Origin: an uncultured Bacteroidales bacterium
GTDB lineage: Bacteria; Bacteroidota; Bacteroidia; Bacteroidales; Bacteroidaceae
Length of the DNA stretch: 64,000 bases
Direction: 5' to 3'
Assembly (NCBI GenBank): GCA_902779845.1
Contig: CACZCZ010000020.1
Location: 62,001-126,000 of the forward strand
The position numbers and the translations under genes are program-made. Within the stretch, counting starts at the first letter, position 1. Each line of letters starts with the position of its first letter. Positions 20,860 to 58,902 of the stretch are shown here, in pieces. Under the pieces are notes generated by a model. That model ran no database searches and was not told where the DNA came from. It worked only from the letters and a program-made list of their open reading frames with translations.

Positions 20860-21924
20860 TTAGCGCTTGCGGCGCTGTTGTTGATTGGGTTTTCTGCGCT
20901 TCGGAATCTGATAGGGTTTCTCCTTGACGACCTTGATCTTCTGCTCCACATCCTGCTGGTTGCGGAACTCCATGGGTGAACGGCGATGGTCGAGGCTGTC
21001 CAGCGTGATGGCACCGGCAGAGCGCGATGAGGTGACAGCAAGCGTGTCGGCCTGGAGTGTGTCTGTCTGCACGCTATCGGGCTTGTTCAGGCGGTCGCGC
21101 CACTGCTGACTCTTGTGGAAACGGATGAGGGAGATGCGATTGAGGATGTCGATGCAGAGGCGCTGCGGGTCGTTGTCGGCAGGAATGTAGAAGAAGCCGC
21201 TCACGCCACGCGCCACCCAGCCCTCGGGGTTGTTGATGCGCAGTTCGCTGGACGTGCGGGCAGTGAACTGCATGGTACGGGCACGCACGGAATCGTTGTC
21301 GTAGCTCACCACCATGGTGACATATATACTATAGTACCCGTCGCGCGCATAGGACTGTGTCTGGAAGCGGAACAGCAGGTCGTCGCCCGGCAGCCACGTG
21401 GAATCACAGGGGATATACCACGACCGCAGGTTCTCGCCGCTGCGGTTGCGGATGGCGAAGAGCTGACGTCCCGACCACACATTGGCGGTGTCGCCGTCTG
21501 CCGTGAGGCCAGCATAGATATCGCCGCTGCCCAGCGAAGCGCCCAAGGCCTCGGCATCACGATCCAGACGCTCCGAGAGATGTTGATAGAGGCGGTTCAT
21601 GCGGTCCAGATCGCTGCAATAGAAGACCATGGAGCTGTCGAACTCCGCCTGTGTGATGCCATGCTTGCGCAACACAGCCTCCTGCAGCTCATAGCGCTGG
21701 AAGTCTATGGTCTTGCCGGGCTCTGTGGAGACCTCGGACATCGCCTGTGCCACATGGTAGTCGTAGAGCACCTCCTCCATTTTGGATTCCGACATGACAC
21801 CATCGGGCAACTGGGGCTCGCAGGAGGAGAGGAAAAGGAGGAGGAGAAGGAGAAGACCCACCCCCCTGCCCCTCCCTTGTAGGGAGGGGAGTAAGATGTG
21901 TCTGAGAAATGAGTGTAACTCCAT
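20860..21924 (-). CDS. DUF4296-like lipoprotein with a repeat-encoded signal-peptide segment
   Basis: 354 residues. The N-terminus is MELHSFLRHI, then LLPSLQGRGRGVG encoded by a palindromic repeat copy, then a poly-leucine core and lipobox LFLSSC (Cys about 35). Residues about 36-120 match the DUF4296 pattern: EEVLYDYHVAQAMS and LRKHGITQAEFDSSMVFYCS. A beta-rich middle region and a basic tail (KRRKPNQQQRRKR) follow. Function is unknown. It lies between lspA, which would process it, and the pyrimidine genes. The arginine-containing insertion in the n-region of the signal peptide leaves the hydrophobic core intact. Confidence 0.8.
   Translation of the reverse strand: MELHSFLRHILLPSLQGRGRGVGLLLLLLLFLSSCEPQLPDGVMSESKMEEVLYDYHVAQAMSEVSTEPGKTIDFQRYELQEAVLRKHGITQAEFDSSMVFYCSDLDRMNRLYQHLSERLDRDAEALGASLGSGDIYAGLTADGDTANVWSGRQLFAIRNRSGENLRSWYIPCDSTWLPGDDLLFRFQTQSYARDGYYSIYVTMVVSYDNDSVRARTMQFTARTSSELRINNPEGWVARGVSGFFYIPADNDPQRLCIDILNRISLIRFHKSQQWRDRLNKPDSVQTDTLQADTLAVTSSRSAGAITLDSLDHRRSPMEFRNQQDVEQKIKVVKEKPYQIPKRRKPNQQQRRKR
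21854..21893 (-). repeat. Palindromic GC-rich repeat, in-frame copy in the DUF4296 gene
   Basis: CCCCTCCCTACAAGGGAGGGG hairpin core (split as CCCCTCCCT / AGGGAGGGG) with the tail GGGGGGTGGGTCT, in sense orientation. Translated as LLPSLQGRGRGVG within the signal peptide. No inverted partner is seen downstream of lspA. Confidence 0.8.
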
Positions 21925-21943
21925 CCTAATTTTTTTGGGCGAC

Positions 21944-22020
21944 CTCGTTATACCGTTATACCGTTATACCGTTATTACGACAATTCCTAGCCGCCTTTAA
22001 CCATTAACCCTTAACCCTTA
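21944..22020. repeat. AT-rich CCGTTATA repeat and ACCCTTAACCCTTA run
   Basis: About four CCGTTATAC units (21946-21981) are followed by ATTAACCCTTAACCCTTAACC-type units that run into the 3' end of lspA. They are intergenic filler of the second repeat class. No gene is seen. Confidence 0.55.
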
Positions 22021-23117: not shown

Positions 23118-26100
23118 TTAGATTTTCTCGATACGTGCGTTGAGCTGGAAGTCCTCGAAGTCGAGCACAGCGGCGTCGGCGACAGTGTCGGCGAGCGTGA
23201 TGCCGTCGGCCAGCACCTGCGCGGTGATGTAGCTGCCGAAGGCCTCCACGGCGCGGTCTGTCTGCGCGTTGTGTTCGAGGGTGATGTGTATGCGGTCGGT
23301 GATTTCGAAGCCGCTCTCCTTGCGCAGGTTCTGTATGCGCTTCACGAGCTCGCGGGCGTTGCCCTCGTTGCGCAGCTCGTCGGTGACGGTGATGTCGAGG
23401 GCCACGGTGAGTACGCCGTCGTTGGCCACGGTCCATCCGGGGATGTCCTCGCTGAAGATTTCCACGTCCTCGAGCTCCACGGTGATGGCGTCGCCGGTGG
23501 GCAGTGTCAGCGGCAGCTGTCCTGTCTCGAGCACAGCAATCTGCTCCTGTGTGAGGGCAGTGACGGCGGCGTTGACATCCTTCATCAGCTTGCCGAACTT
23601 CTTACCCATCGTGCGGAAATTGCACTTCACCTTCTTCGTCAGCAGCCCGGCGCCCTCCACGAACTCGAGCTCCTTGACGTTGACCTCGTCGAGGATGAGC
23701 TGCTTCACGGCTTCGATGCGCTGCTGCAGCTCGCGGTCGATGGCGGGAATGGCGATGCGTGCCAGGGGCTGGCGCACGATGATCTGCTCCTTCTTGCGCA
23801 GCGAGAGCACCATGGAGGTGATTTCCTGTGCCAGTGCCATGCGCGACTCCTGTTCCTTGTCGATGAGGGCATCATCGGCCACAGGGAAGGAGGCGAGGTG
23901 GACGCTGTTGGGCTCGGCAATGGAATTGTCGAGCACACTATGCAAATCCCTGTAGAGCTGGTCGGCGTAGAAGGGAGCGATGGGGGCCATCAGGCGCGCC
24001 ACGGTCTCCAGACAGGTGTAGAGTGTCTGGTAGGCGCTGAGCTTGTCGATGCTCATCTCGCCGCCCCAGAAACGCTTGCGGGAGAGGCGCACGAACCAGT
24101 TAGAGACATTGTCGATGACGAATGCCTGGATGAGGCGTCCGGCGCGCGTGGGCTCGTAGGCCTCGTAGCTCTGCTCCACCTCGCGGATGAGGGTGTTCAG
24201 CGACGAGAGAATCCAGCGGTCCATTTCCGAGCGCTGGCTCATGGGAACTTCGGGCTCCTCGAAGTGCCAGCCGTCCACGTTGGCATACATCGCCAGGAAG
24301 CTGTACGTCTGATAGAGTTTGCCGAAGAAGGAGCGGGAGACCTCTTGAACTCCTGCTTCATCATATTTGAGGTTATCCCATGGCTGTGAGTTGGTTATCA
24401 TGTACCAGCGCACAGCATCGGAACCGAATTTCTCGATGTTGTCGAAGGGGTTGATGGCGTTGCCGAGGCGCTTGGACATCTTCAGTCCGTTCTTGTCCAG
24501 CACGAGGCCGTTGCTGATAACTGCCTTGTAGGCGACGCTATCGAAGACCATCGTGGCGATGGCGTGGAGCGTGAAGAACCAACCGCGCGTCTGGTCCACA
24601 CCCTCGGCGATGAAGTCGGCGGGATAAACGACGCGCTTGTCCAGTGCCTCCTTGTTCTCGAAGGGATAGTGAATCTGAGCGTAGGGCATGGCTCCGCTGT
24701 CGAACCACACGTCGATGAGGTCCAGCTCGCGCTGCAGTGGCTTGCCGCTCTCGCCCACGAGGACGATGTCATCCACGTAGGGGCGGTGCAGGTCGATGCG
24801 GTCGTAGTTCTCCTGCGACATGTCGCCGGGCACGAAGCCCTTGTCCTTGAGCGGGTTCGAGGCCATCACGCCTGCGCGCACGCTCTTCTCTATCTCGTTG
24901 TAGAGTTCCTCGATGCTGCCGATGCAGATCTCCTCGCGCGTCTCACGGTTGCGCCAGATGGGCAGCGGTGTGCCCCAGTAGCGGCTGCGGCTGAGGTTCC
25001 AGTCGTTGAGGTTCTCCAGCCATTTGCCGAAGCGCCCTGAGCCCGTGGATTCAGGCTTCCACAGGATGCTCTTGTTCAGCTCCATCATGCGCTCCTTGGC
25101 GGCTGTCGAGCGGATGAACCAGCTGTCCAGCGGGTAGTAGAGCACAGGCTTGTCGGTGCGCCAGCAGTGGGGGTAGTTGTGCACGTGCTTCTCGATTTTG
25201 AAGGCCGTGCCCTCCTGCTTCATCTCCATGCAGAGGACGATGTTCAGGTCCTCGGTCTTGGCCAGCGCTTTCTCGTCGAGGCCGGCATACTGCGGGTCGT
25301 AGGCGTTCTTGACGAAGTCGCCGGCGTGGTGCCAGTAGCTGTCGTTGACGCATGTCGCCACGAAGGCCTCGTCCATGTCGTCCTTCACGAAGTACTTACC
25401 CGTGAAGTCCACCATGGGTCGTGTGTCGCCGGCTTTGTCGATGACGAACAGCGAGGGGATGCCGGCATCCTTGGCCACCTTGGCATCGTCGGCACCGAAC
25501 GTAGGCGCGATGTGCACGATGCCCGTACCGTCCTCCGTGGTCACGTAGTCGCCGGGGATGACGCGGAACGCCTCGGCGCTCTTGTCCACGGCCTTGCCGC
25601 CCTCCAGCGCACAGGGCTTCACCCAGGGGAAGAGCTGCTCATAGTGGAGGCCCACGAGGTCTGTGCCCATAAATTCGGCTACGACCTCAGGAGCGGCAAC
25701 GCCCTCCTCCTTCGGCTGGGGGAAATAGACATCCTTGCGGCTCTCGGCCACGATGTAGATGGCCTCCTCCTTCGTATAGGGGTTCTGTCCCTTGACAGCG
25801 ACATATTTGATTTTCGGGCCTACGCACAGTGCCGTGTTCGAAGGCAGTGTCCAGGGCGTCGTCGTCCACGCCAGGATATAAACAGGCAAAGACCCAGCAG
25901 CCACATGTGACCACTCTCCCCCTTGAGGGGGAGCGGGGAGGGGGTCTGCTACCTTAAACTGCGCCGTGACGGTCGTGTCCTTCACATCGCGGTAGCAGCC
26001 GGGCTGGTTCAGCTCGTGGCTGGAGAGGCCGGTACCGGCGGCAGGGCTATAAGGCTGGATGGTGTAACCCTTGTAGAGCAGGTCCTTCTCGTAGAGCTGC

Positions 26101-29327: not shown

Positions 29328-29370
29328 GCCCCCTCTAAATCTCCCCGAGGGGAGACTTGGGGAAGGGGTT
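29328..29370 (+). repeat. Variant GC-rich palindromic repeat, intergenic
   Basis: CTCCCCGAGGGGAG core flanked by CCCCCTCTAAAT and a G-rich tail. Related to but shorter than the other copies. It is followed by an AAGAGTTTAAGAGTTCAAGG-type repeat to 29406, which fills the gap between batE and the PAP2 gene. Confidence 0.6.
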
Positions 29371-29401: not shown

Positions 29402-30163
29402 TCAAATCACTTCTAACTCTTTTCGTGGCAGCCAGCCCTGCTTGCCGTCGGTCATGTGCACCTCCACCCACTCTTTCATCGAGTCATCGACAATCTCCAC
29501 ATGGGTGCCCTCGTGGAGGATGAAGAGGTCGGTGCCGGAGGCGCTGGGCGTGCTCTTGACGACGGCCGAGGGGGCCATGATGACGGCGCCTGTGCGATGC
29601 TCTATCTGGTGGCGCTGGCGCACGGCGGCGACATTGGCGAAGATGCAGACGAGGAAGGCGAGGATGGCCACCGTGAAGCCTGTTTTCTTGGCCCACAGCA
29701 GGGGCGCAAAGAAATAGACGGCCAGGGCCAGCAGCGCCAGCATGAACATGGCCACGGCCAGCACAGCCCACCCCTGGATGCTCATGGAGAGCACCAGCTG
29801 GCGGTAGAGCGAGACGAAGAACATCTCAGAGGCGGGCACTACCTTGTCCACGGTCTTGGCGCGCGCCATCTCGAGATTGAAGCGGATGTCGTCGTCGGAG
29901 GGGTCGAGCAGGCGGGCGCGCTCGTAGTAGAGGATGGCGCGCGCGAGGGAGTCCTGACGGAAGTAGCAGTTGCCGAGGTTGAAATAGAGCTGGGCGCTCT
30001 CGCCCATGGAATCTACGAGCTGGCGATAGATGACAGCGGCCTCGGCGTAGTGCTCGTGGGTGTAGGCGGAGTCGGCAAGGGCGGAAGACTCTCCCCCCGC
30101 CCTCCCTATCAGGGAGGGAGCGGTTAGTATTAGCGCTAAAAGTAGTTTATGTATTGTTTTCAT
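29402..30163 (-). CDS. batE: BatE-like TPR protein of the Bat operon
   Basis: 253 residues. The N-terminal MKTIHKLLLALILTAPSLIG is nearly identical to that of the BatD protein here, and its second half is repeat-encoded. TPR repeats follow (about 30-100: AEAAVIYRQLVDSMGESAQL, YFNLGNCYFRQDSLARAILY). Two membrane helices lie near 130-180, and a C-terminal SH3-like domain (about 190-250: VVKSTPSASGTDLFILHEGT and VEVHMTDGKQGWLPRKELEV). BatE proteins belong to the Bacteroidota aerotolerance system of VWA membrane proteins. It follows batD. Confidence 0.88.
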   Translation of the reverse strand: MKTIHKLLLALILTAPSLIGRAGGESSALADSAYTHEHYAEAAVIYRQLVDSMGESAQLYFNLGNCYFRQDSLARAILYYERARLLDPSDDDIRFNLEMARAKTVDKVVPASEMFFVSLYRQLVLSMSIQGWAVLAVAMFMLALLALAVYFFAPLLWAKKTGFTVAILAFLVCIFANVAAVRQRHQIEHRTGAVIMAPSAVVKSTPSASGTDLFILHEGTHVEIVDDSMKEWVEVHMTDGKQGWLPRKELEVI

Positions 30164-30259
30164 TATGTACTCATTATGTATAAAGATTTCTATTCTTGTT
30201 CGCTATCGCTCTCCCTCTCCCCTCTCCCCTCCCTAACGGGAGGGGTCGGGGGTGGGTCT
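30086..30259. repeat. Composite inverted-repeat unit bracketing the batE start
   Basis: The left end at 30086 starts AGACTCTCCCCCCGCCCTCC and carries a CCCTCCCTATCAGGGAGGG hairpin (in frame, APSLIGRAGGES). The right end (30226-30259) is an inverted copy ending GGGGGTGGGTCT one base before the batD stop codon at 30261. The core holds the batE ribosome-binding region, ATG and first codons. The core resembles that of the 32058-32208 unit (TTAGTATTAGCGCTAA and TTTCTATTCTTGTTC in both). Confidence 0.8.
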
Positions 30260-30260
30260 T

Positions 30261-32135
30261 CTAATTCCTCTTCAGTTCCCCCTCCATCTTGTTGATGACC
30301 TCCTCGGCAGAGGCGTAGATTTTGTCCATGGTGGCGGCAGGGTCGCCGGGGGCGAAGCGGGCGAACTCGCAGTCGTCGAGGGTGGTGAGGAACTGTGTGA
30401 TGAGCGTCTCGGAGATGTTGCGGTCGGTGAGCTTGCCGCGGACGTTGTCCTTGGAGAGCTCGCTGACGGGGATGTTCAGCTTGTCGCTGACGTAGCCCCA
30501 GAGGGCTTTCATGGTCTCCTCGTAGAAGGCGGTGGCATCGTTCTGCTGCATCAGCTTGCGCGCCACCTTCAGGCGCTTCGTGGCGGCTTTGCTGGCCTTG
30601 CGGCCACGGCGGCCTACGAGGTCGGCATTGGCGACCATATAGCGGCGGAAGGCCACGGCGAGGACGATGAACACGAGCAGCGAGCCGATGTAGTAGGCCC
30701 AGTAGCGGCGCGAGCCGAAGAAGGCGCTGTCGCCCGTCTGATAGGTGGGCGTGCCGGTCTTGATGAAGCGGATGTCGCTGTTGAGCATCTCAATCTCCTC
30801 CTTGGACAGGTTGCTGCCGCTGGAAGCGCTGCCGCCCTTGCCCTTGGCGACATCGATGGTGTAGCCCTCGGAGGTCAGCGTCTTATAGGCGCGGGCGTCG
30901 GGGTCGAAATAGCAGAACTCCACGGGCGGGAGCTCATACTTGCCCTGGTGGCGCGGCACGGCGATATAGTCGAAGAGCACCTCTCCCGTGGAACCGTTAG
31001 GGCCGATTTTTGTCTTCTCCTCGATCTTGGGGTCGTAGCGCTCGAAATCCTTGGGCCATGCCACCTCGGGGGCGTTCATCAGCTTCATGTTGCCCGTGCC
31101 GCTGACACGCAGGCGCAGCGTGGTGGCATCGTTGGACTTGAGTGCCTGAGGCGTGAGCGACGAGGAGAGGGAGAACTTACCCACAGCGCCCGAGAAATTC
31201 GAGGGCTTGGGCGTCGGCAGGGCATCTACGTGCAGCGTTACAGCCGGCGCCATCACCGTCTTCTTCACCTCCTGCATCATCGAGCCGCCGCCGAAGAAGA
31301 TGTCGAAGGGGTCGGCAGAGCGGTTCTGCTGGATGACGGTGGCCTCGTACTTGATTTCGGGAATCTTCAGCTCGCCCGTCTGCTGCGGGAAGACGACATA
31401 CTGCGACCATACGACGGTGCCGTAGTTCTTGCCGTTGTAGTGCTCCATCTTCAGCTCCGGCTGCTTCTGGCGGTTGATTTCCTGCACATGGAAGCCGTCC
31501 AGCTCGGGCATCTTACCCATGAGCTCGCTGACGTTGACCAGCGTGTAGAGCTTATAGGTCAGCAGCACGGCCTCCTGCTCGAAGACGCGCTTCTTGGAGG
31601 CTGTCACGGCGATGAAGAGGTCCTTGCTGCCAATGCGGTCGCCCACGCTCTGCGTGCGCATGCGGTCGGCCTGCTGCGAGTGAGCCTGCCCGCCTTGTCC
31701 TGCGCCACCTTGCCCCGAGCCGCCGGAACCGGCAGAGCCGCCGGGCAGCACGGTGATCTGCGGCGAAGCGGACTTCACGGTCTTGCCGCCGCTGGTGACG
31801 GTGGCGGCAGGCACACGGAACGTGCCGGCCTTGTCGGTGGTGACGGTGTAGGTGAAGGTCACAGAGCTGCTGCTCGTGGCCTTGCCGTTGATGATGGAGT
31901 AGCTCGACGACTGGCTGCGGCTGGGGCCATACAGCTCCACGAGGCCCTCGAAGGCGTCGATGCGGAAATCATCCACATCGGAGGTGTTCACGATGTAGGC
32001 AATGCGGAAGCGGTCGCCCTGTATCACCTCGGAGGGAGCCTGCACGCGGATGGTGACGGACTCTCCCCCCGCCCTCCCTATAAGGGAGGGAGCAGTTAGT
32101 ATTAGCGCTAATAGAAGTTTATATATCGTTCTCAT
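30261..32135 (-). CDS. batD: BatD-like oxygen-tolerance protein
   Basis: 624 residues. The signal peptide MRTIYKLLLALILTAPSLIG is partly encoded by a palindromic repeat. A large beta-rich periplasmic region (about 30-490) has repeated Ig-like strands (VTFTYTVTTDKAGTFRVPAA, FDYIAVPRHQGKYELPPVEF) and a glycine-serine-rich loop near 135-160. A membrane helix lies near 465-485 (YWAYYIGSLLVFIVLAVAF). A cytoplasmic helical tail contains MKALWGYVSDKLNIPVSELS. This is the standard BatD architecture. It probably works with BatA/BatB VWA proteins and the MoxR ATPase at the inner membrane. Confidence 0.9.
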   Translation of the reverse strand: MRTIYKLLLALILTAPSLIGRAGGESVTIRVQAPSEVIQGDRFRIAYIVNTSDVDDFRIDAFEGLVELYGPSRSQSSSYSIINGKATSSSSVTFTYTVTTDKAGTFRVPAATVTSGGKTVKSASPQITVLPGGSAGSGGSGQGGAGQGGQAHSQQADRMRTQSVGDRIGSKDLFIAVTASKKRVFEQEAVLLTYKLYTLVNVSELMGKMPELDGFHVQEINRQKQPELKMEHYNGKNYGTVVWSQYVVFPQQTGELKIPEIKYEATVIQQNRSADPFDIFFGGGSMMQEVKKTVMAPAVTLHVDALPTPKPSNFSGAVGKFSLSSSLTPQALKSNDATTLRLRVSGTGNMKLMNAPEVAWPKDFERYDPKIEEKTKIGPNGSTGEVLFDYIAVPRHQGKYELPPVEFCYFDPDARAYKTLTSEGYTIDVAKGKGGSASSGSNLSKEEIEMLNSDIRFIKTGTPTYQTGDSAFFGSRRYWAYYIGSLLVFIVLAVAFRRYMVANADLVGRRGRKASKAATKRLKVARKLMQQNDATAFYEETMKALWGYVSDKLNIPVSELSKDNVRGKLTDRNISETLITQFLTTLDDCEFARFAPGDPAATMDKIYASAEEVINKMEGELKRN

Positions 32136-32208
32136 TGTTTAAGATGAATTTCTATTCTTGTTCAGTATTCGCTCCCTCCCTCATAGGGAGGGCGGGGGGA
32201 GAGTCTTC
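32058..32208. repeat. Composite inverted-repeat unit bracketing the batD start
   Basis: The left end carries CCCTCCCTATAAGGGAGGG in the batD frame (APSLIGRAGGES). The right end CTCCCTCCCTCATAGGGAGG with tail GGGGGGAGAGTC lies one to two bases before the batB/batC stop at 32210. The ~77-base core includes the batD start codon and is homologous to the batE core. Confidence 0.8.
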
Positions 32209-32209
32209 C

Positions 32210-33925: not shown

Positions 33926-33928
33926 GAC

Positions 33929-34020: not shown

Positions 34021-34022
34021 AA

Positions 34023-35026: not shown

Positions 35027-36154
35027 CTATCTGATAAGGTCAATAACAAGATACAGCGCATAGACAGCCAGCACACAGGCCACAACAGCACTCACGCCCA
35101 TGATAATCTTCATCGTCAGCGAGCGTGCCTTGATCTGCTTCACCTCCTCGGGGATGATAACTTCCTCCTCCGACTGGTTGGGATCGACTTCCTGCTTCGT
35201 CTGGTTGATGAAGTCAATGGCACTGACCAGATTGGCGTCGTTCTCGCCCGTGAGCGTCCTCCACTTGGCGAACTTCACAAGGTCGGCGGTCTGGAACAGC
35301 TGGCGCAGCTCGTTGAGGGCGGTCTCATCCTGCTCCTGCAAAAGGCGCTCGATGATTTCCGCCGAGGTCATCTCCATCGCATTGAAGCCAAAGCGCTCAT
35401 GGATGTAGTTGCGCAGCGTGTCGGTGAGCTGTGTGTAGTACTCCTTGCTGTCATCCTCCGTCCAGTGGCGCTCGCCCTTGATGCGCTCAATTTCATTCAT
35501 CGCCACCTGATGGGCGGGCAACTTGCGCTTGCGGCGGATGATGCGTATCAGCGGCTTGTTCTCATGCCAGCGGCTGTAGAGCCACAGCAGCGCCAGCGCC
35601 AACAGCTGATGGAAGAACAGCAACCACAACACAGGCTTCCAGTCATCCCATGAGAAGGGATTATTCTGAATAGGCTTGTTGGGACAGTACTGAGTGTAGT
35701 CCACCGTGAGCGTGTCAATGGGAACTGTTAGCACTTTCAATGCCAGCTCCTTAGACTTGTATGGTTTACCATCTACTTCAACAGTAAAAGGCGGCAGGAG
35801 CACAAGGGTGGAGTCCCATGCCGTGAGCGTGTAGCGCTGCTGCACCTGCATCCTTTTACCATCATCGAGGTAGGTGGTGTCTGTGCCCAACAGCTCAACA
35901 ACCTCCACCTCGGGGGCCAGCGGTTGCTGCGGGCGCAGGTCGGGCATCTTCAGCTTCTGCTTCGAGCCGCAGGTGATATCCAGCGTCAGTTCGCGCTGCT
36001 CGCCGATGAGCAACACCAGCGTGTCGATGCGCGCCTCGAAGACTACCTGAGAGAAAGCGGAGAGAGGGAGAAAAAGCAGAAGACCCACCCCCCTGCCCCT
36101 CCCTGCGAGGGAGGGGAGTAAATACTTCTGCAGTATATGTTTCAATCGCTTCAT
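35027..36154 (-). CDS. Bat-operon membrane protein of unknown function
   Basis: 375 residues between the DUF58 gene and batA, the usual place of an uncharacterised Bat-operon protein. The N-terminal signal region MKRLKHILQKY-LLPSLAG-RGRGVG-LLLFL contains a palindromic-repeat-encoded segment. A beta-rich periplasmic part (about 35-160, with ARIDTLVLLIGEQRELTLDI) is followed by a membrane helix (about 175-192) and a helical cytoplasmic region with YYTQLTDTLRNYIHERFG and ERLLQEQ. A final helix is near 355-373. It probably joins the Bat membrane complex; function is inferred from context only. Confidence 0.85.
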   Translation of the reverse strand: MKRLKHILQKYLLPSLAGRGRGVGLLLFLPLSAFSQVVFEARIDTLVLLIGEQRELTLDITCGSKQKLKMPDLRPQQPLAPEVEVVELLGTDTTYLDDGKRMQVQQRYTLTAWDSTLVLLPPFTVEVDGKPYKSKELALKVLTVPIDTLTVDYTQYCPNKPIQNNPFSWDDWKPVLWLLFFHQLLALALLWLYSRWHENKPLIRIIRRKRKLPAHQVAMNEIERIKGERHWTEDDSKEYYTQLTDTLRNYIHERFGFNAMEMTSAEIIERLLQEQDETALNELRQLFQTADLVKFAKWRTLTGENDANLVSAIDFINQTKQEVDPNQSEEEVIIPEEVKQIKARSLTMKIIMGVSAVVACVLAVYALYLVIDLIR

Positions 36155-36277
36155 TTATCTCTGAAAGAAAAATCTATAATCTAATTATTTTGAATGGAAC
36201 TACACCCGCCGTAGGCTTCCCCCTCGCCCCTTGGAGAGTGGGCTAGGGGGTGAGGTTTGGGTTGGGGGTGGGTCTTC
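36081..36277. repeat. Composite inverted-repeat unit bracketing the start of the Bat-operon membrane protein
   Basis: The left end AGACCCACCCCCCTGCCCCT with a CCCTGCGAGGG hairpin encodes LLPSLAGRGRGVG in the signal peptide. The right end is a longer variant (36214-36277) ending GGGGGTGGGTCT, two bases before the DUF58 stop at 36280. The core contains the ATG at 36154. Confidence 0.75.
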
Positions 36278-39855: not shown

Positions 39856-41230
39856 GTGAGATATATGTAATTGAATCAATATATTCTGCATAGAGGTCAA
39901 AGTCATCAGAAGACGTGATGCGAACATCATAGAAAGCGCCGATTTCCAAGGACTTATCATTCACAGGAATGAGTACCTCAGGATCTACTTCCGGCGAATC
40001 AAACTGTGTGCGGCCGACATAATAGTCGCCTTCGATGCGGTCGATGATGACACGCTGCACAGTGCCCACCTTCGCCTCCTGAATCTCGCCGGAGATGCGC
40101 TGCTGCAGGCGCATGAGCTTGGAGAGGCGCGCCTGCTTGACATCCTCAGGAATATCGTCAGCGTAGTGCTCTGCGCTATAGGTCCCTTCTTCCTCGCTGT
40201 AGGCAAAGGCGCCCATACGCTCGAAGCGAGCCCAGCGCACAAACTCCAACAGCTCATCGAAAGCTGCATCTGTTTCACCGGGATGGCCCACCATCAAGGT
40301 CGTACGCAGATGAATACCAGGCACTTCGCGACGAATACGTTCCACAAAGGAATAGGTCTCCTCCTTGGTGATATGGCGACGCATGGCCTCGAGCACGGGC
40401 GTGCTGATGTGCTGCAGCGCAATGTCTAAGTAGCGACAGATATTGGTATGACGATTGATGACAGGCAGCAGCTCCCAAGGGAAATCCGTAGGATAGGCGT
40501 AGTGCAGACGAATCCACTCAACGCCCTCAATATCAGCCATCTGGTCAATAAGTTCCGCGATGGCACGACGGTGATAGAGGTCGAGGCCGTAGAACGTCAG
40601 TTCTTGGGCGATGACATTGAACTCCTTCACGCCCAGTGCCACCAGCTGCCGCACTTCCTCCAGAATCTCTTCCATCGGACGGCTGACATGGGCGCCCGTG
40701 ATAATCGGGATGGCACAGTATGAGCAATGGCGGTTGCAACCCTCAGAAATCTTGATGTAGGCATAATGTGAAGGGGTGGTAATGATGCGGCTGGGCTTCA
40801 AGTTCTCGTCCCAAGCCTTACCCAGATCGGTCAGCAGCTGGGGCCAGTCGAACTTTCCATACCAGCCATCCACCTCGGGAATCTCCGTCTGGAGTTCCGC
40901 AAGATAGCGCTGCGAGAGACAACCCATCACAAAGAGCTTTTTCAGTGTGCCTTCAGCCTTGCGCTGTCCCTGTTCCAGAATGACATTGATGCTCTCCTCC
41001 TTGGCATCACCGATGAAGCCACAGGTGTTGACAACACAGATGTCGCCCTTAGCCACCTCGGGATCATGCTGCACAGCGAAGCCCGCCTGACGCAACTGTG
41101 CCAACAGGCGCTCACTGTCCACCAGATTCTTGGAGCAACCCAGGGAGATGATGTCTATAGACCCACCCCCCTGCCCCTCCCTTGTAAGGAGGGGAGTAGA
41201 ATGTTTTGCTATAGAAGAGCTAATCGCCAT
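39848..41230 (-). CDS. rimO: Ribosomal protein S12 methylthiotransferase
   Basis: 460-residue radical-SAM enzyme that methylthiolates the conserved aspartate of S12. The N-terminal UPF0004 domain has IISLGCSKNLVDSERL, with iron-sulfur cysteines here and in CVVNTCGFIGDAKEES. The radical SAM motif CNRHCSYCAIP lies near 165. IRLHYAYPTDFP and TTLMVGHPGETDAAFDELLE lie in the barrel, with a C-terminal TRAM domain (VIIDRIEGDYYVGRTQFDSP). The normal start would be just before IDIISLG. Here a 23-residue extension MAISSSIAKHS-TPLLTREGQGGGS is present, its second half encoded by a palindromic repeat. Confidence 0.95.
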
Positions 41231-41304
41231 TATATAATCTTATAGAATCTCAAATCTTGAAGGTGACCACTCCCTCCCTACAAGGGAGGGTGAGGGGTGG
41301 GTCT
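41159..41304. repeat. Composite inverted-repeat unit bracketing the rimO start
   Basis: The left end AGACCCACCCCCCTGCCCCT with CCCTCCCTTGTAAGGAGGGG encodes TPLLTREGQGGGS in RimO. The right end (41265-41304) CTCCCTCCCTACAAGGGAGG ends GGGTGGGTCT one to two bases before the ftsY stop at 41306. The rimO ATG at 41230 is in the core. Confidence 0.8.
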
Positions 41305-45999: not shown

Positions 46000-46082
46000 C
46001 AGTTTTTTTTTCATACCACCGCACAAAATCCTTAAAAATCTGTCCTACAGAGCCATTTTTCACTAAAATGTAGAAACGAGAC

Positions 46083-46511: not shown

Positions 46512-46545
46512 GACTACGACTTGTTTAATGTTTATAATTTTACAT

Positions 46546-47910
46546 TTACTGATATACCTTTCTCTTGTCAACCACGCGTACTGCCTTACCTTCACTAACA
46601 GGGAGAGAGCCCTTGGGAACAAGACGTACAATGGGTTTCAGCAAGATCTCGTCGCCCAAGCGATGACGGATCTCCTTTGACAGGAGCTGGATCGCATTGT
46701 AGTCATCGGTGGGCTCGCGGAGTTCCACTTCGACAATCATCTGGTCGTTGTTATCCTCCGTGACAAGTGTGATCAGGTAATTCGTTCCGACTTCGGGGAA
46801 CTGCATCAGGATCTTCTCAATCTGAATGGGGAAGATATTGACACCACGCAGCACGATCATATCATCGCTGCGACCTTTCATGCGATCAATGCGAACATGA
46901 TTGCGGCCACAGGGACATGTGCGTCCCAAGACACGGGTAAGGTCTCGAGTGCGATAGCGCAGCAGCGGCATGGCCTCGCGACAGAGTGTCGTCAGCACCA
47001 GTTCGCCGACTTCGCCGTCGGGCACAGGCTCCAGCGTCTCAGGATTGACAATCTCCACGATGTAGTAGTCTTCCCAGAAGTGAAGGCCGTTTTGTTCAGG
47101 GCATTCAAAGCCCACGCCCGGGCCGCACATCTCACTCATGCCGAATGAGTTGTAAGCCTTCACGCCCATCATCTCCTCGATGCGCTTGCGCTGCTCCTCG
47201 CTGTGGGGTTCGGCACCGATGGCCAGCACCTTCAATTTCGTGTCACGACGCGGGTCAACGCCCTCTTGCTGCATCACTTCGTACAGGCGTGTGACATAGC
47301 TTGGGATGGCATGAATGGCTGTGGTACCGAAGTCCTTGATGAACTTGATTTGGCGCAGCGAGTTTCCCGCCGCAGCAGGAACGGTAAGCATCCCCAGCTT
47401 CTCAGCGCCATACTGGAAGCCGAGACCGCCAGTAAACATTCCGTAACCGCTGGAATTCTGGAAAACGTCATCGGGGCGTAAACCCACCATCCACAGATTA
47501 CGTGCGACCTGATTAGCCCACTCGTCAAGGTCTTTCTGTGTATGCAGAATAACCGTGGGATTGCCTGTTGTTCCGCTGGAAGAATGAAGGCGCACACAAT
47601 CGCGCAGAGGAACACAAGCCATTCCGAAGGGATAGGTTTCGCGCAGGTCCTGCTTTGTCGTGAAAGGCAGCTTACGCACATCAGCCAGTGACTTGATATC
47701 GTCAGGCGTGATGCCAGCCTCAGCAAACTTCTTGCGGTAGAACTCATTGTTCATGCAGTGGCGCACTGTCTTTTGCAGACGCTCCAACTGCAACGCCTCA
47801 ATCTCAGCACGGGAGAGAGTTTCAAATTCCGGGTTAAAGAAAGCAGACCCACCCCCAGCCCCTCCCGTAAGGGAGGGGTGAGGCTGGCGCGATGTTTCTT
47901 TATTATCCAT
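46546..47910 (-). CDS. paaK: Phenylacetate-CoA ligase, first copy
   Basis: 454 residues, ANL-superfamily ligase forming arylacetyl-CoA. The motif LHSSSGTTGNPTVILHTQKD lies near 100. Further markers are QNSSGYGMFTGGLGFQYGAE, the SFGMSEMCGPGVGFEC motif (near 252), and RTRDLTRVLGRTCPCGRNHV with DDMIVLRGVNIFPIQIE near 370. The N-terminal MDNKETSRQ-HPSLTGGAGGGS is an extension encoded by a palindromic repeat; the family core begins near FFNPEFETLSR. It is paired with a second paaK upstream and an ACT gene downstream. Confidence 0.93.
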   Translation of the reverse strand: MDNKETSRQPHPSLTGGAGGGSAFFNPEFETLSRAEIEALQLERLQKTVRHCMNNEFYRKKFAEAGITPDDIKSLADVRKLPFTTKQDLRETYPFGMACVPLRDCVRLHSSSGTTGNPTVILHTQKDLDEWANQVARNLWMVGLRPDDVFQNSSGYGMFTGGLGFQYGAEKLGMLTVPAAAGNSLRQIKFIKDFGTTAIHAIPSYVTRLYEVMQQEGVDPRRDTKLKVLAIGAEPHSEEQRKRIEEMMGVKAYNSFGMSEMCGPGVGFECPEQNGLHFWEDYYIVEIVNPETLEPVPDGEVGELVLTTLCREAMPLLRYRTRDLTRVLGRTCPCGRNHVRIDRMKGRSDDMIVLRGVNIFPIQIEKILMQFPEVGTNYLITLVTEDNNDQMIVEVELREPTDDYNAIQLLSKEIRHRLGDEILLKPIVRLVPKGSLPVSEGKAVRVVDKRKVYQ

Positions 47911-47994
47911 ATATTATAGATTTATGGTTTAATCTCAAATTGTTTCAGCCCGCAGGCCCTCCCCTCCCTCACGGGAGGGGTAGGGGGTGGGTCT
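47845..47994. repeat. Composite inverted-repeat unit bracketing the first paaK start
   Basis: The left end AGACCCACCCCCAGCCCCTC with CCCTCCCGTAAGGGAGGGG-type hairpin encodes HPSLTGGAGGGS. The right end CCCCTCCCTCACGGGAGGGG ends GGGGGTGGGTCT at 47994, overlapping the stop codon (47993-47995) of the second paaK. The core carries the ATG at 47910. Confidence 0.8.
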
Positions 47995-49300
47995 ATAGCT
48001 TGCGCTTATCAATCACATGTGCGCTCTTGCCTTGACTGCGCTCAATGGTGTTGGGCGCTTTCAGCTGCACCTTGGCGGCAATGCTGAGCACGCTCTTAAG
48101 TTTGGCCGCCAGTTTCTTCTCGAGCTGGTCCACAGCGGCAGGCGTGTCGAAGACGCCGGTAAAGAACTCTTGACGGATCTCTACCTGTACCTGTAACGTA
48201 TCGAGGTTGTTGACACGGTCCACGATAAGCATATAACGTGGCGCAAACTCCGGCATCGACAGTACGACGCTCTCCACCTGCGAGGGGAATACATTGATAC
48301 CGCGGATGATGAGCATATCGTCCGAGCGTCCTTCGATGCGCCCCATACGCACATTCGTACGGCCGCAGTCGCAGGTGCCAGGCAGCAGCGAACAGAGGTC
48401 GCGTGTGCGATAACGCAACACAGGCATCCCTTCTTTTGTGAGCGTCGTGAACACCAGTTCGCCCGTCTGTCCGGCTGGCAGGGACTCCAGCGTGGTAGGA
48501 TTGATGATTTCGGGATAGAAGTGGTCCTCGTTGATATGGGAGCCGTGCTGCATCTGGCATTCGTAGCTGACGCTCGGCCCCATCACCTCGGAGAGGCCGT
48601 AGATGTTGTAGCCCTTCAGTCCCAGACGCGCCTCTATCTCCTGACGCATACTCTCTGTCCAGGGCTCAGCGCCGAAAGCGCCTACGCGCAGCTTGATATC
48701 CTCTTTTCGAATACCCAGCTTGTCCATCGTCTCCGCAAGGTAGAGGGCGTATGACGGTGTGCAGGCCAAGCCCGTTATTCCAAGGTCGCGGATGAGCTTT
48801 AAGTGCTTCTCGGTGTTGCCCGTGCCGGCCGGGATTACGCTGGCGCCAAGATGCTCCACGCCATAATGAGCGCCCAGACCGCCCGTGAACAGGCCGTAGC
48901 CGTAGGCCACGGAGAAGATGTCGTCGCGCGTGACGCCATAGGCTGTCAGACAACGCGCCATACACTCGCTCCACACCCCGATGTCCTTACGCGTGTAGCC
49001 CACAATGGTGGGATTACCCGTGGTGCCGCTGGAAGCGTGTACACGGATAATCTCACTCTGTGGCGCAGCCTGCAGACCAAAGGGATAGTTGTCACGCAAA
49101 TCCTTCTTTGTCGTGAAGGGCAGCTTCTTGATGTCCTCTATGGTCTGAATGTCATCAGGACGAATGTCCAGCTCCTGCAGCTTGTTGCGGTAGAAGGGCA
49201 CATTATGATACACGTACTCCACAATTTTGTGAAGACGTTTACCCTGGAGCGCGCTCATCTCATCGCGGCTCATACATTCTTTTTTCGGATTCCAAATCAT
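47993..49300 (-). CDS. paaK: Phenylacetate-CoA ligase, second copy
   Basis: 435 residues, about 50 percent alike to the neighbouring paaK by eye. VHASSGTTGNPTIVGYTRKD is near 88. Also visible are YGYGLFTGGLGAHYGVEHLG, IYGLSEVMGPSVSYECQ (near 240) and RTRDLCSLLPGTCDCGRTNV with DDMLIIRGINVFPSQVE. There is no repeat-encoded insertion, so the N-terminus MIWNPKKECMSRDEMSALQG represents the family's usual form. It follows mce by about 50 bases, giving the order mce, paaK, paaK, ACT. Confidence 0.93.
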   Translation of the reverse strand: MIWNPKKECMSRDEMSALQGKRLHKIVEYVYHNVPFYRNKLQELDIRPDDIQTIEDIKKLPFTTKKDLRDNYPFGLQAAPQSEIIRVHASSGTTGNPTIVGYTRKDIGVWSECMARCLTAYGVTRDDIFSVAYGYGLFTGGLGAHYGVEHLGASVIPAGTGNTEKHLKLIRDLGITGLACTPSYALYLAETMDKLGIRKEDIKLRVGAFGAEPWTESMRQEIEARLGLKGYNIYGLSEVMGPSVSYECQMQHGSHINEDHFYPEIINPTTLESLPAGQTGELVFTTLTKEGMPVLRYRTRDLCSLLPGTCDCGRTNVRMGRIEGRSDDMLIIRGINVFPSQVESVVLSMPEFAPRYMLIVDRVNNLDTLQVQVEIRQEFFTGVFDTPAAVDQLEKKLAAKLKSVLSIAAKVQLKAPNTIERSQGKSAHVIDKRKL

Positions 49301-49353
49301 GATTTATTGTTGTGTTTGAGGAGCTGGTTATTCGTTATAGGATTCATTGCGGA

Positions 49354-53001: not shown

Positions 53002-54666
53002 TTATTGTACAGCCACGCGACGGGGCAGAACCTGACGAATACCTTGCTCACGGTGTGTCAGGATGACTTCAACACCGTACTTCTTGTTCAGGTGTTCGGC
53101 CAGATGCTGGGCACTATAGACAGAGCGGTGCTGTCCACCCGTGCAGCCAAAGGAGAACATCAGATCGGTAAAGCCACGCTGCAAGTAGCGCTCTACATGA
53201 GCATCTGCCAGTCGATAGACACTGTCGAGGAAGGTCGTGATCTCGCCATCGTCCTCCAAGAATTTGATGACGGGAGCATCCAGGCCTGTCAGCTGTTTAT
53301 ACGGTTCATAGCGCCCGGGGTTGTGCGTGCTGCGGCAGTCAAAGACATAACCTCCGCCGTTGCCGCTCTCATCCTCGGGGATACCACGCTTGAAGCTAAA
53401 AGAAAATACGCGGACAACAAGGGCAGACTCACCACCTACGGACTCACCCACTACAGACTCACCCCCCTGCCCCTCTCTTGTAGAGAGGGGAGTAATTACA
53501 TTTGGGGAAGAGGGGGAAATGCAATCCTGACTTTTAGTGAGGGCTTCCAAGACCTTGCGCAGTTCGGGATAGGGGCAGGAGCCTTCTTCCTTCAACAGCT
53601 CTCGCAGGTTGTCAAGGGCTGGCGGGATGCTATCGAGAAAATGTTTCTTACGCTCGAAATAGCCGCGGTAGCCGTAGGCACCGAGAACTTGCAGGAGACG
53701 GAAGAGGATGAAGGAGTGAAAAGCGGAAAATGAAAAGTGAAAAATGGAGGTACCCTGAGCCTTCAGCACCTCATCCATGCTCTGGCAATAGACCTCTGTC
53801 AACTCCTGGCGCAACGCTTGTGGATAGCGGGCAGAGGCCTGCCACAGGAAGCTGGCAAGGTCATAGTAGATAGGACCTCGGCGGCCGCCCTGGAAATCAA
53901 TGAAGAAGGGATTTCCGTTGGCGTCAAGCATCACATTGCGCGCTTGGAAATCGCGGTAGAGAAAGGCAGACTCTCCCCCCTGCCCCTCCCTATGAGGGAG
54001 GGGAGTAGTTACCTTTGCGGATGGAGATACGGATGCCCGCTCAGAACATTCCACTCCCTCCCTTATAGGGAGGGAGGGGGGAGAGTCTGTTGTGAGAAGG
54101 TCCTTTGCCAACTGGCGGAAGTCCTGTTCGAGACGGACTTCGTGGAAGTCAACGCCCGTGGCCTTGAGAAAGCAGTATTTGAAGTAGTTGAGATCGAACA
54201 TGACGTTCATCTCGTCCATTTCAGGCTGGGGATAGCAGACAGAGAAGTCCAGGTCCTGTGCGCCGAGAATCTGCAGACGCGGCAGCTGGGCAATGGTGCG
54301 CCGCAGCAGTTCCTTCTCCTGCTCGCTGTACAGCCCGCCGGCCTCACGTCCGCTTTTCAGGGCATCGAAGAGGGAGTAGGAGCCCAGGTCTTCCTGCAGG
54401 TAGCACATCTCATCATCCGACACAGCCAGCACCTGCGGCACAGGCAGCCCCTTCTCAAAGAAATGACGTGCAAGGGTGATGAAAGCGTGGTTCTCTTCAT
54501 AGGACGTGCCATGCACGCCGATCAGGCTTGTTCCATCGGTGGAAAAGAAGCGGACATACTGGCGGTTAGAGCCCGACCCCGTGATGCTTTCCACGCGTTC
54601 AGGAAGCGCACCGGCGTAGGCGCTATAGAGGTTGAGCAGGTTGGGATGTAAATCTTTACTTTCCAT
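53002..54666 (-). CDS. Sugar-kinase-like/RapZ C-terminal fusion protein with three repeat-encoded insertions
   Basis: 554 residues from MESKDLHPNLLNLYSAYAGA. Residues about 15-370 are an aminoglycoside-phosphotransferase-fold kinase like AmgK: RVESITGSGSNRQYVRFFST, the catalytic loop YRDFQARNVMLDANGNPFFI (near 250) and DFQGGRRGPIYYDLASFLWQ. AmgK phosphorylates the anomeric position of MurNAc/GlcNAc in cell-wall recycling. Residues about 415-550 are a RapZ C-terminal domain: NPGRYEPYKQLTGLDAP and FSFGCTGGQHRSVYSAQHLA. Three in-frame palindromic repeats add SPPSLPIREG and TPLPHREGQGGES before the catalytic loop, and TPLSTREGQGGES between the domains. Another short repeat-like HFSFSAFHSF lies near 320. 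Confidence 0.88.
   Translation of the reverse strand: MESKDLHPNLLNLYSAYAGALPERVESITGSGSNRQYVRFFSTDGTSLIGVHGTSYEENHAFITLARHFFEKGLPVPQVLAVSDDEMCYLQEDLGSYSLFDALKSGREAGGLYSEQEKELLRRTIAQLPRLQILGAQDLDFSVCYPQPEMDEMNVMFDLNYFKYCFLKATGVDFHEVRLEQDFRQLAKDLLTTDSPPSLPIREGVECSERASVSPSAKVTTPLPHREGQGGESAFLYRDFQARNVMLDANGNPFFIDFQGGRRGPIYYDLASFLWQASARYPQALRQELTEVYCQSMDEVLKAQGTSIFHFSFSAFHSFILFRLLQVLGAYGYRGYFERKKHFLDSIPPALDNLRELLKEEGSCPYPELRKVLEALTKSQDCISPSSPNVITPLSTREGQGGESVVGESVGGESALVVRVFSFSFKRGIPEDESGNGGGYVFDCRSTHNPGRYEPYKQLTGLDAPVIKFLEDDGEITTFLDSVYRLADAHVERYLQRGFTDLMFSFGCTGGQHRSVYSAQHLAEHLNKKYGVEVILTHREQGIRQVLPRRVAVQ
53455..53493 (-). repeat. Palindromic GC-rich repeat between kinase and RapZ domains
   Basis: CCCCTCTCTTGTAGAGAGGGG hairpin (arms CCCCTCTCT and AGAGAGGGG) with the GGGGGGTGAGTCT tail, sense orientation, translated TPLSTREGQGGES. 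It is followed by two further GAGTC-containing short duplications encoding VVGESVGGES. Confidence 0.8.
53968..54089. repeat. Composite inverted-repeat unit wholly inside the kinase-RapZ gene
   Basis: The left copy 53968-54007 (AGACTCTCCCCCCTGCCCCT with a CCCTATGAGGG-type hairpin) and right copy 54041-54089 (CTCCCTCCCTTATAGGGAGG, tail GGGGGGAGAGTCT) are inverted with a 34-base core. The whole 122-base unit is open in the gene's frame, encoding SPPSLPIREG ... TPLPHREGQGGES just before the kinase catalytic loop. Confidence 0.85.
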
Positions 54667-56655: not shown

Positions 56656-58137
56656 TTATCTCAGGAGTAGTTTCTTGGTGAGATTTGTGTCTTCGGGCGC
56701 TACAAGTTGTATCTCGAATTGTCCGACCTCTTTCATGGTCACATTCAGGCGTTTGAACAGACGGAACATCCCCAGCGTCTGCCCTTGGCCGAACAGACGT
56801 CCGAGCGCTGCAATCGGCTGTGTGTCAAGGGTCAGATAGAGACGATAGTTCTTTATCTGCTGACGTTCAGATCGGAGGTAAGCATTTTCCTGTGGCACAC
56901 GTTCCGTGGTGGCCAAATTCTGACTGGCTGCAACATACAAGATATTGTCATGGGCTCCGAACCACGCCGAATAGCCGTTGGCCATCAGACAGAAGTCCCG
57001 CGGCGAGGACTCAGTGAGTTTGTATCCCGACTGCGCGGCAGCACTCTTCAGCCAGTAGTCCTTCTGTTGGAGGAAGTTCATGTCCTTGAGTTCCGCCAGC
57101 AGGCGCAACGAGGGCGTACGACTCCACCCCAGCAGGAAGGTGACATCTGTCAGTTCCAGCATCACGTCGCCATCAACGGCTGTCAGCATCTGGTCTGCAT
57201 CAACCATCATATTCATCCCCAACAGCGCGGTGCGCAGGTCAGGGTTCTTGCGCAGGAATTCAATGAGCGTGCTACCTTGGACATTGCACATCAGCCACAT
57301 CAGCCCCGAGGGCTGTGCCCGATCAATGAGACGTCCATCGATGGGTCGCAGTGTCTTCGCAATGTCCTTGAGATGCTGCGAAGCCTCAGCCTGATCTGTC
57401 AGCAGGTCTATATGGAACACCAGTTCATTCTTGTTGGCATCGGCCGCCAGACGCAAATAGATGTCATCCAATGTCTCCAAGCCCAGCATCTCCGAGATCT
57501 GTCCTCGCCATTCTATCGGCAACAGCGCCGCATCTGCCACTGCCGACAGCGGCTCGACATTTCCATCCAAGCGATGAAAGAGTTCGGTGTGGATAGCGCT
57601 CTGCAAGGGATTCTGTTTCATGAGCTCGGCCATCTGTCCACGCAGGCGGTCCTGGTCAGCACCGATGGCAGGTCCCATGACGAGAGCTCTGTCATCATCG
57701 AAGCACAACAACCACTGACGCGCCACCACAGCCCACGAGAAGCCACGTTGCCGGGTCATCTCCGAGGCCAGTCCGCGCTCCTGAAGCTCCTCGCAGAAAT
57801 CCTCAAAGTCATCGTCGTCGCTCAGCGCCGCCACAGCGCCAAAGCCTCCTTCCTTGGTAGCAAAACCATAGATGGGTTTCTTCAAGTCGATTCCCAAGTC
57901 CGTTTCGTCGTCAGCATCGCTCATATAACGTCGCATCAGTTGCAACTGTTCCTCGAGGGTGAAGTCTGCTTTGTCAAAGAGATGGACTATGTCAAGGCGG
58001 GCAATGGCAACAGCATCCTTGGGGATGACACTGCCGTGAATCACGCGGCGCCGCGACCATAAAAAGAGCACTGCCGCAACGATGATTACCACGGCAATGA
58101 CAGCTGCAAGGATATAAAGATGTTTCTTTTTCATCAC
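56656..58137 (-). CDS. Membrane-anchored DUF4836-like protein
   Basis: 493 residues. One N-terminal membrane helix (LYILAAVIAVVIIVAAVLFL, about 6-27) anchors a long soluble part, probably periplasmic. Repeated beta-alpha patterns are seen: IPKDAVAIARLDIVHLFDKA, GFATKEGGFGAVAALSDDDD and SWAVVARQWLLCFDDDRALV. It resembles the DUF4836/DUF3352 group of Bacteroidales proteins, for which no function is established; I am not sure of the family. It lies six bases after rsmE. Confidence 0.7.
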   Translation of the reverse strand: MMKKKHLYILAAVIAVVIIVAAVLFLWSRRRVIHGSVIPKDAVAIARLDIVHLFDKADFTLEEQLQLMRRYMSDADDETDLGIDLKKPIYGFATKEGGFGAVAALSDDDDFEDFCEELQERGLASEMTRQRGFSWAVVARQWLLCFDDDRALVMGPAIGADQDRLRGQMAELMKQNPLQSAIHTELFHRLDGNVEPLSAVADAALLPIEWRGQISEMLGLETLDDIYLRLAADANKNELVFHIDLLTDQAEASQHLKDIAKTLRPIDGRLIDRAQPSGLMWLMCNVQGSTLIEFLRKNPDLRTALLGMNMMVDADQMLTAVDGDVMLELTDVTFLLGWSRTPSLRLLAELKDMNFLQQKDYWLKSAAAQSGYKLTESSPRDFCLMANGYSAWFGAHDNILYVAASQNLATTERVPQENAYLRSERQQIKNYRLYLTLDTQPIAALGRLFGQGQTLGMFRLFKRLNVTMKEVGQFEIQLVAPEDTNLTKKLLLR

Positions 58138-58143
58138 AAATGT

Positions 58144-58902
58144 TTATCGATTAGCCAGACGCATGAGATGCACCGCCACAAGTGCGGCTGTCTCTGTACG
58201 CAGGCGGCTTGTGCCTAAAGAGACCGAGCGGAAGCCGGCCGCTTCAGCAGCCCTAACCTCGTCGATGCTGAAGTCTCCTTCGGGACCGATGAGCACTAGA
58301 GCCGGGGTCTGGGGTTGTAAAATATCAAGGAGAAAAGGAGCAGACTCTCCCCCCGCCCTCCCTATAAGGGAGGGAGCAGAATGTTCTGAGCAGGCGTCCG
58401 CATGGCAATGCGCTATGAAGCGTTGCTCGGGGAGGTCTGTGCGCTGGATGAACTTTTGGAAAGGCATCATCTCTTCAAGGACCGGCTTCCAGGCCTTGTG
58501 GCTCTGTTTCATGGCGGCTATCAGGATCTTGTCGAGGCGGTCGGTCTTGACAACACGGCGTTCCGAGAAGCGGCAGTCCAGCAGCGAGAGGCGGTCGAGC
58601 CCGACCTCTGTGGCCTTCTCTGCCAGCCATTCCATCCGGTCCATATTCTTTGTCGGTGCCACGGCCAGATGAATCATCCCTGTCCATTCAGGTTGCTGCG
58701 GTTCACGCGCTTCGATGCGATAGCGGCAGTGGTGTCCTGTGGCTTCCGTGATGACAGCGCGATAGAAGCCACCTGTTCCATCCATGAGATGTATCTCATC
58801 ACCCATCTGCAAGCGCAACACGCGCAGGGCGTGCTGTGCTTCGTCGGCCGGGAGCTGTCCGGCCTCGGGTTCGGGTGTATAGAAGAAACGGACTTCTTTC
58901 AT
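58144..58902 (-). CDS. rsmE: 16S rRNA (uracil-1498-N3)-methyltransferase with a repeat-encoded insertion
   Basis: 252 residues. It methylates U1498 of 16S rRNA. The N-terminal PUA-like domain (1-70) has QHALRVLRLQMGDEIHLMDG. The SPOUT methyltransferase domain has VAPTKNMDRMEWLAEKATEV, LLDCRFSERRV and the SAM-knot LIGPEGDFSIDEVRAAEAAG and VSLGTSRLRTETAALVAVHL. The segment DACSEH-SAPSLIGRAGGES between HCHA and PFLLDILQ is encoded by a palindromic repeat and falls in a loop before the knot. The catalytic motifs are intact, so function is probably kept. Confidence 0.95.
   Translation of the reverse strand: MKEVRFFYTPEPEAGQLPADEAQHALRVLRLQMGDEIHLMDGTGGFYRAVITEATGHHCRYRIEAREPQQPEWTGMIHLAVAPTKNMDRMEWLAEKATEVGLDRLSLLDCRFSERRVVKTDRLDKILIAAMKQSHKAWKPVLEEMMPFQKFIQRTDLPEQRFIAHCHADACSEHSAPSLIGRAGGESAPFLLDILQPQTPALVLIGPEGDFSIDEVRAAEAAGFRSVSLGTSRLRTETAALVAVHLMRLANR
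58341..58390 (-). repeat. Palindromic GC-rich repeat inside rsmE
   Basis: TCAGAACATTCTG extension, then CTCCCTCCCTTATAGGGAGG and tail GGGGGGAGAGTCTG, sense orientation, translated SEHSAPSLIGRAGGES. The same TCAGAACATTC extension occurs in the copy at 54041, so the full unit is about 50 bases. Confidence 0.85.

Follow-up and report, generated by a model that had tools for sequence, protein, structure and literature searches.

Palindromic repeats in frame in Bacteroidaceae genes are probably the arms of very small DUF559 nuclease elements

Among repetitive extragenic palindromic (REP) sequences, those of the CGTC type apparently lack a dedicated transposase, according to the consulted parts of a 2013 study that also treats intragenic REPs; there, what moves palindromic repeats without a REP-associated tyrosine transposase (RAYT) was an open question (PMC3733652). 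In the consulted parts of two further papers, the homing endonuclease I-Bth0305I is described as forming a dimer on a target that spans nearly 60 bp (PMC3943268) and a DUF559 gene is assigned to the EDxHD homing family (PMC9403480). Here we describe a 64,000-nucleotide stretch (the window) of an uncultured Bacteroidales bacterium (assembly GCA_902779845.1, contig CACZCZ010000020.1, positions 62,001 to 126,000), in which GC-rich hairpins recur within and between genes. These palindromes are probably the terminal arms of very small mobile elements, driven by a DUF559 nuclease and accompanied by short derivatives. The source genome, that of a rumen-type bacterium, was assembled as a draft in 47 contigs and is 86% complete. 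Arms were counted in the window and in 28 fetched stretches of this genome, 27 picked for pattern matches and one for a Y1_Tnp gene, so the census is that of a sample and not a genome-wide total. Relatives are given as G codes and fetched loci as L codes.

All four PF04480 (DUF559) matches in the source genome lie inside inverted arm pairs, and three arm families are involved. Family A pairs hold two of the intact genes and a family B pair holds a fragment; the remaining gene, also intact, lies in a family C pair at the 5' end of asnS (named from sequence reading). Two long pairs in this genome enclose a DUF559 gene. One genome can host several arm families, as here with A, B and C, and DUF559 lineages differ in their arms. 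Long members, measured at 472-688 bp in the set of named genomes described below, carry one DUF559 gene of approximately 120-130 codons between two inverted cognate arms; in other copies the gene is lost, other DNA lies inside or the arm stands alone. The DUF559 profile matches PDB 3hrl, an 'endonuclease-like protein' (4.6e-34), and PDB 3r3p, a 'mobile intron protein' (2.9e-8) which we take to be I-Bth0305I. Residues E29, E68, D70 and H74, in L034 numbering, are invariant across 49 aligned DUF559 sequences. Judged by these matches and residues, the protein is an EDxHD/Vsr-type endonuclease.

Each arm consists of a GC-rich outward tail, a hairpin of 8-10 bp and a short inner motif. Elements of families A and B run in the order AGAC[TC]C[AT]CCCC tail, hairpin, inner motif and interior, followed by the reverse of the same. 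The sampled stretches contain 98 family A and B arms, 14 of them in the window, and 70 of the 98 form 35 outward-facing inverted pairs, most of which are 117-275 bp long. Arm type matches within the pair in 27 of 35 cases. Identical loops were seen within 13 of 34 readable pairs, compared with 4.2 expected (0/5000 shuffles), and when shuffled within arm type in 10 of 26, compared with 4.8 expected (39/5000 shuffles). Four family A arms also stand in direct tandem, 37 bp apart, at L021 5120-5265.

The link between DUF559 and the arms was tested in four sets of loci, from the genus, the phylum, plasmid records and named genomes. The 300 bases upstream of each DUF559 locus were aligned with the reverse complement of the 300 bases downstream. 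The threshold was the maximum of base shuffles (200 for the genus, phylum and plasmids, 100 for the named genomes), and the same test with the span shifted by approximately 1 kb served as control. As the threshold is a random shuffle maximum, borderline loci vary between runs. Within the genus, cognate inverted arms were present at 69 of 72 DUF559 loci and at 0/139 controls; the 72 come from 90 matches, after exclusion of 17 that were weaker or partial and one that lay at the edge of a contig. The three misses (L040, L041 and L109) all lie at the threshold. Among 29 phylum loci, those of the best matches from a listing with more than 100 others, 17 had arms (control 1/53), with two runs giving 19/29 and 17/29.

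Arms were also found at 9 of 15 plasmid loci (control 2/30), the 15 being part of 36 records found. The positive plasmids are from Pseudanabaena (two), Picosynechococcus, Sphingomonas, Sphingobium, Novosphingobium, Deinococcus (two) and Synechocystis (one, at threshold), and so fall in Cyanobacteria, Deinococcota and Alphaproteobacteria. The negatives among the 15 are Azospirillum (at threshold), Sinorhizobium, Photobacterium, E. coli, a second Synechocystis and Shinella; Synechocystis plasmid 3 and Azospirillum swap outcome between runs. Two of the plasmid records contain the arm repeatedly, at 5 and 8 places. In the named genomes, 79/79 loci had arms, 72 of them new (control 1/152). This set is the best 80 of 535 relatives in a family A-centred alignment, one being too near a contig end, and its loci are thus near kin. 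Carriers are mostly Prevotellaceae, Bacteroidaceae or Bacteroidales metagenome-assembled genomes, many from ruminants, with Xylanibacter brevis ATCC 19188 the single isolate. A phage search returned 9 distant records.

Over 68 genus loci, compared in 2205 pairs at non-orthologous sites without shared flanks, arm similarity covaries with DUF559 identity (Mantel r 0.21, 0/2000 permutations). The arm family was shared in 14 of 20 pairs with at least 70% DUF559 identity (62% of the 16 pairs at 70-80% and 4/4 above) and in 0-3% of pairs below 60%. The seven genomes with an A-like arm beside DUF559 hold 29, 0, 9, 32, 56, 34 and 5 exact family A arms, the nuclease's own arms included, compared with a mean of 1.8 in the other 54 genomes (rank test p 2e-5). 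The A-like arm is on one side only in G010, G016 and G040. Family M gave a weaker result, with counts of 5, 16, 0, 0, 0 and 1 compared with a mean of 0.22 elsewhere (p 8e-4); two of these six genomes have the M-like arm on one side only.

An initial annotation, made from the letters of the window alone, had reported at least 17 hairpins between 21.8 and 58.4 kb, 11 of them inside genes with the frame kept and read in at least three frames. These counts were reproduced. When a 20-base hairpin consensus was searched for on both strands, allowing 3 mismatches at most, it gave 21 matches at 11 sites in the window, against 0.11 expected; one of the 11 sites, 46590, is matched on one strand only and is probably due to chance. 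A separate scan for pyrimidine-stem hairpins of at least 7 bp found 15 in the window and 1 in the reversed window. After manual addition of imperfect stems and sister families 17 arms were listed, copies of families A, B and C all being present, and 11 of the 17 lie within open reading frames (ORFs), using phases 0, 1 and 2. The carriers are the DUF4296 gene, ileS, batE, batD, the Bat-operon ORF 35027-36154, rimO, the PaaK-type AMP-binding ORF 46546-47910, the kinase-RapZ gene (three arms) and rsmE. Pfam agrees with the names first given to these nine genes, although the BatD match of ORF 35027-36154 falls below its cut-off. The true start is uncertain for some N-terminal copies (DUF4296 and ORF 35027-36154), and in batE, batD and rimO the element itself contains the ORF's first start codon. 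The ileS copy belongs to a different arm family, and many copies turned out to be halves of inverted pairs, which the initial annotation had missed. The strict family A/B search found five such pairs in the window, to which a hybrid pair at 36081-36275 is added. The features are as follows.

21854..21890, plus strand: single family A arm near the N-terminus of the DUF4296 ORF (LPSLQGRGRGVGL)
25909..25945, minus strand: arm from a different family, read in frame within ileS (DPLPAPPQGGEWS)
29330..29370, unstranded: intergenic hairpin of another family
30086..30259, unstranded: batE-leader pair with an A arm on the left and a B arm on the right, the interior supplying the start codon and signal-peptide codons
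32058..32206, unstranded: batD-leader A pair; the leader of relatives there is 215 bp (G304) or 121 bp (G041)
36081..36275, unstranded: hybrid pair (A left, C-type right) at the N-terminal end of Bat-operon ORF 35027-36154; in G041 a B pair occupies the site
41159..41304, unstranded: A pair at the start of rimO; of the two matches in G041, one carries 15 nt in its place
47845..47994, unstranded: B pair that separates two PaaK-type genes and is read in frame at the N-terminal end of ORF 46546-47910
53455..53491, plus strand: single A-like arm in the kinase-RapZ linker
53968..54088, unstranded: A pair in frame within the kinase domain of kinase-RapZ; G304 shares the site
58342..58376, plus strand: single A arm in frame in rsmE (APSLIGRAGGES)

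Other repeats accompany the hairpins. AT-rich inverted simple repeats (TTTAACGATTTAACG type and AAGTTTAAAGTTTAAGG type) bracket spacers as the arms do, at 33928-33966 and 37148-37186 in the window and at L280, L299 and L312, and in relatives they replace hairpin arms at some sites. A 15-bp tandem array (window 38892-39236) and a CTGTTG-rich array (32331-32495) are both in open frames.

The flanks of 27 elements of the source genome were compared with G304 and G041, giving 53 comparisons. At L014:6302 the source genome has a 256-bp pair holding a C-terminal piece of a B-type DUF559. The corresponding stretch in G304 is 542 bp long and includes an intact DUF559 gene (E 5.7e-44), and in G041 the site is empty, with 18 bases instead. 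At L013:6713 the gene is intact in the source genome and G304 retains a short N-terminal remnant between the arms, a weak match (E 0.031). Short pairs can thus arise from the full-length element by internal deletion, with strong evidence at L014:6302 and a remnant at L013:6713.

Tolerance of in-frame palindromes in Bacteroidota genes, as claimed at the outset, is borne out by kinase-RapZ. The insert at approximately residues 231-271 is missing in 19/19 readable relatives (of 29 aligned). At the DNA level it is missing in 7 of 8 genomes. The exception is G304, where it starts from the same base and differs by 1 mismatch in 121 bp, although the 200-bp flanks are 83-86% alike. In several other cases the copy is no simple insertion and replaces a leader or brackets host DNA. 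In G304 (flanks 99 and 96% alike) and G041, batD has MKKNRFVILFSLLMIMSSLMAQ ahead of VTIRVQAPS, whereas in the source genome the element, whose interior is homologous to the batE leader, gives MRTIYKLLLALILTAPSLIGRAGGES at that place. The batD element thus swaps the leader including start codon and signal peptide, and a swap of the same kind is seen in a sulfatase-like gene. In an Mfd-like gene two arms bracket host codons, and at both of these places the arms differ among three species. Two arms also bracket host codons in a UvrA-like gene, and there are none in G041 (these last three genes were named from sequence reading). Sites 36081 and 47845 have different arm types in different species, G304 and G330 carrying other types at 47845.

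Two further observations concern G304. Positions 29600-38810 of the window are mostly 97-98% identical to G304, whereas the matched parts of 39224-49316 are only 83-90% identical, a step which suggests recent exchange between the two lineages. At the batE leader, G304 contig C53 (L188, approximately 1311-8005) has 6.7 kb inserted, including an open frame of 1911 codons.

Elsewhere in the phylum, whole DUF559 domains are in frame in LeuRS (L082, L085), MetH (L102, L108) and HsdR (L086, L088). Further whole domains lie in frame in HsdM (L096) and in a protein of epimerase type (L041), and another precedes guanylate kinase (L046). Arms were not significant in the arm test at L082, L085, L108 and L041.

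A cut-and-repair mechanism may account for these patterns. The DUF559 nuclease would recognise the arm of its own family, which might then be folded into a cruciform or a single-strand hairpin, a dimer would cut two nearby inverted sites, and repair of the break from another element copy would install a fresh pair of arms. Cutting of two inverted sites by a dimer, followed by such repair, is suggested by analogy, from the homology to 3r3p and the I-Bth0305I dimer on its target of nearly 60 bp. This mechanism would explain the absence of a transposase and the replacement rather than duplication of target DNA, the loops shared within pairs and the host DNA between arms, as well as the variable interior (nuclease, signal peptide or host codons). 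In-frame copies probably persist because the arms contain few stop codons and code for linker-like peptides.

We infer movement of the elements from sequence comparisons; movement itself was not observed, and several further points weigh against a DUF559-driven element. The covariation is concentrated in close pairs and weak outside close relatives. G010 has the A-like gene and 0 exact arm copies, and 3 of the 6 genomes with M-like arms at DUF559 have no exact M copy, all of these being drafts. No significant arms were detected at 12/29 phylum and 6/15 plasmid loci, so DUF559 genes can live without arms. At element sites diverged relatives hold other stretches, from approximately 11 to more than 100 nt, and no target duplication is readable. 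Element length modulo 3 in open frames is not constant (6/4/2, for 12 frames of 11 elements), and with lengths so mixed it was abandoned as a guide to target duplication. The interiors of the 35 pairs of the source genome share little beyond two nuclease copies, batE/batD and the short inner motifs. Mobility of whole interiors was rejected on this ground; since interiors are mostly unshared between loci, arms rather than whole elements seem to spread.

DUF559 might instead be a passenger or parasite, a homing-type gene that settled between arms spread by host recombination, another enzyme or replication slippage. Host DNA can indeed be enclosed by arms, and the same sites carry different arm families in different species. 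Two drafts, G015 and G048, are rich in family A arms (40 and 33) with no A-like DUF559 gene detected, a finding that favours a passenger and belongs with the points against a driving nuclease. Against this, the arm family follows the DUF559 lineage at unrelated sites, copy number follows gene presence, and a gene-less and a gene-bearing pair share one orthologous site. We regard a passenger as rather unlikely, in a case limited to the one enzyme other than DUF559 that was searched for, Y1_Tnp.

It is very improbable that the arms are REPs moved in trans by a Y1 tyrosine transposase, the type of mover for which the initial annotation had advised a search. The paired, inverted hairpins with outward tails, mostly 117-275 bp, resemble REPINs, 35 such REP-like outward pairs being present, and the genome has one Y1_Tnp gene. 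However, this sole Y1/RAYT-like gene found in the 86%-complete draft lacks inverted arms (flank score 10.0 vs a shuffle maximum of 12.5) and the nearest hairpin arm is approximately 2.6 kb away, so that a RAYT was rejected as driver. Neither a repeat-flanked Y1 HUH gene nor a GTAG tag was found, and the arms flank DUF559 instead. The Y1_Tnp-type gene (L001 1261-2565) itself contains in-frame short tandem repeats (AEVHGGERD, GARGDEG). Several hairpins directly follow stop codons in spacers, which would suit selected host features (terminators, mRNA stabilisers or linkers) spread by gene conversion. Such an origin is scarcely credible given the in-frame enzyme copies, empty sites in relatives, arm-family turnover at one site and nuclease genes within pairs. 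Least of all do we credit an assembly or binning artefact, named at the outset as a possible refutation: the genome is a draft and element L013:7775 includes a run of N, but copies at orthologous sites occur in other assemblies with diverged flanks, and an isolate genome has the same architecture.

If the palindromes are DUF559 element arms, they may answer the question of what moves palindromic repeats without a RAYT, and the cognate pairing of nuclease and arm opens that question to bench tests. In-frame peptides of the GRAGGES and REGQGGES kind would also be explained, and the elements would be a natural route for proteins to gain linkers, new signal peptides or whole extra domains. More tentatively, and with the balance slightly against it, they may represent a transposase-free mobile class in Bacteroidota, Cyanobacteria, Deinococcota and Proteobacteria, in which a nuclease of approximately 120 residues and hairpin arms suffice for spread. 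Arm pairs around other DNA could then swap leaders or signal peptides and thread nuclease domains in frame into core enzymes, and the class could be the missing driver of non-RAYT intragenic palindromes. No report of an association between DUF559 and hairpin arms was found among the open-licence papers listed, judged by title and abstract start, which does not prove its absence.

Several known systems share part of this architecture. REPINs and RAYT-associated REPs of the GTAG superfamily are likewise short palindromes, often in inverted pairs; their enzyme genes have these repeats on either side, the enzymes are repeat-specific and some copies lie in frame inside genes, as far as the consulted parts of the source describe them (PMC3733652). 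By contrast, the gene between the arms here is a DUF559/EDxHD nuclease and not an HUH tyrosine transposase, the A/B tail given above takes the place of the GTAG tag, and host DNA is bracketed or leaders are replaced. Yeast mitochondrial GC clusters are also GC-rich palindromes; they are considered transposable, occur in frame in var1 and take part in gene conversion. They belong to an organelle system, and the consulted parts of the source describe no matched nuclease gene between the palindromes (PMC8811140). CGTC REPs and Rickettsia palindromic elements (RPE) are similar in placing palindromes in frame in many genes. The parallel with RPE drawn by the initial annotation holds in behaviour, through in-frame palindromes (11/17 arms) in many unrelated genes, whereas the tail is different and a nuclease partner has been found for the present elements. 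The nuclease resembles EDxHD homing endonucleases such as I-Bth0305I in its homology to PDB 3r3p and its conserved acidic and His residues. Unlike the intron-borne I-Bth0305I, however, DUF559 stands between hairpin arms, has gene-less short derivatives and is sometimes in frame with host proteins.

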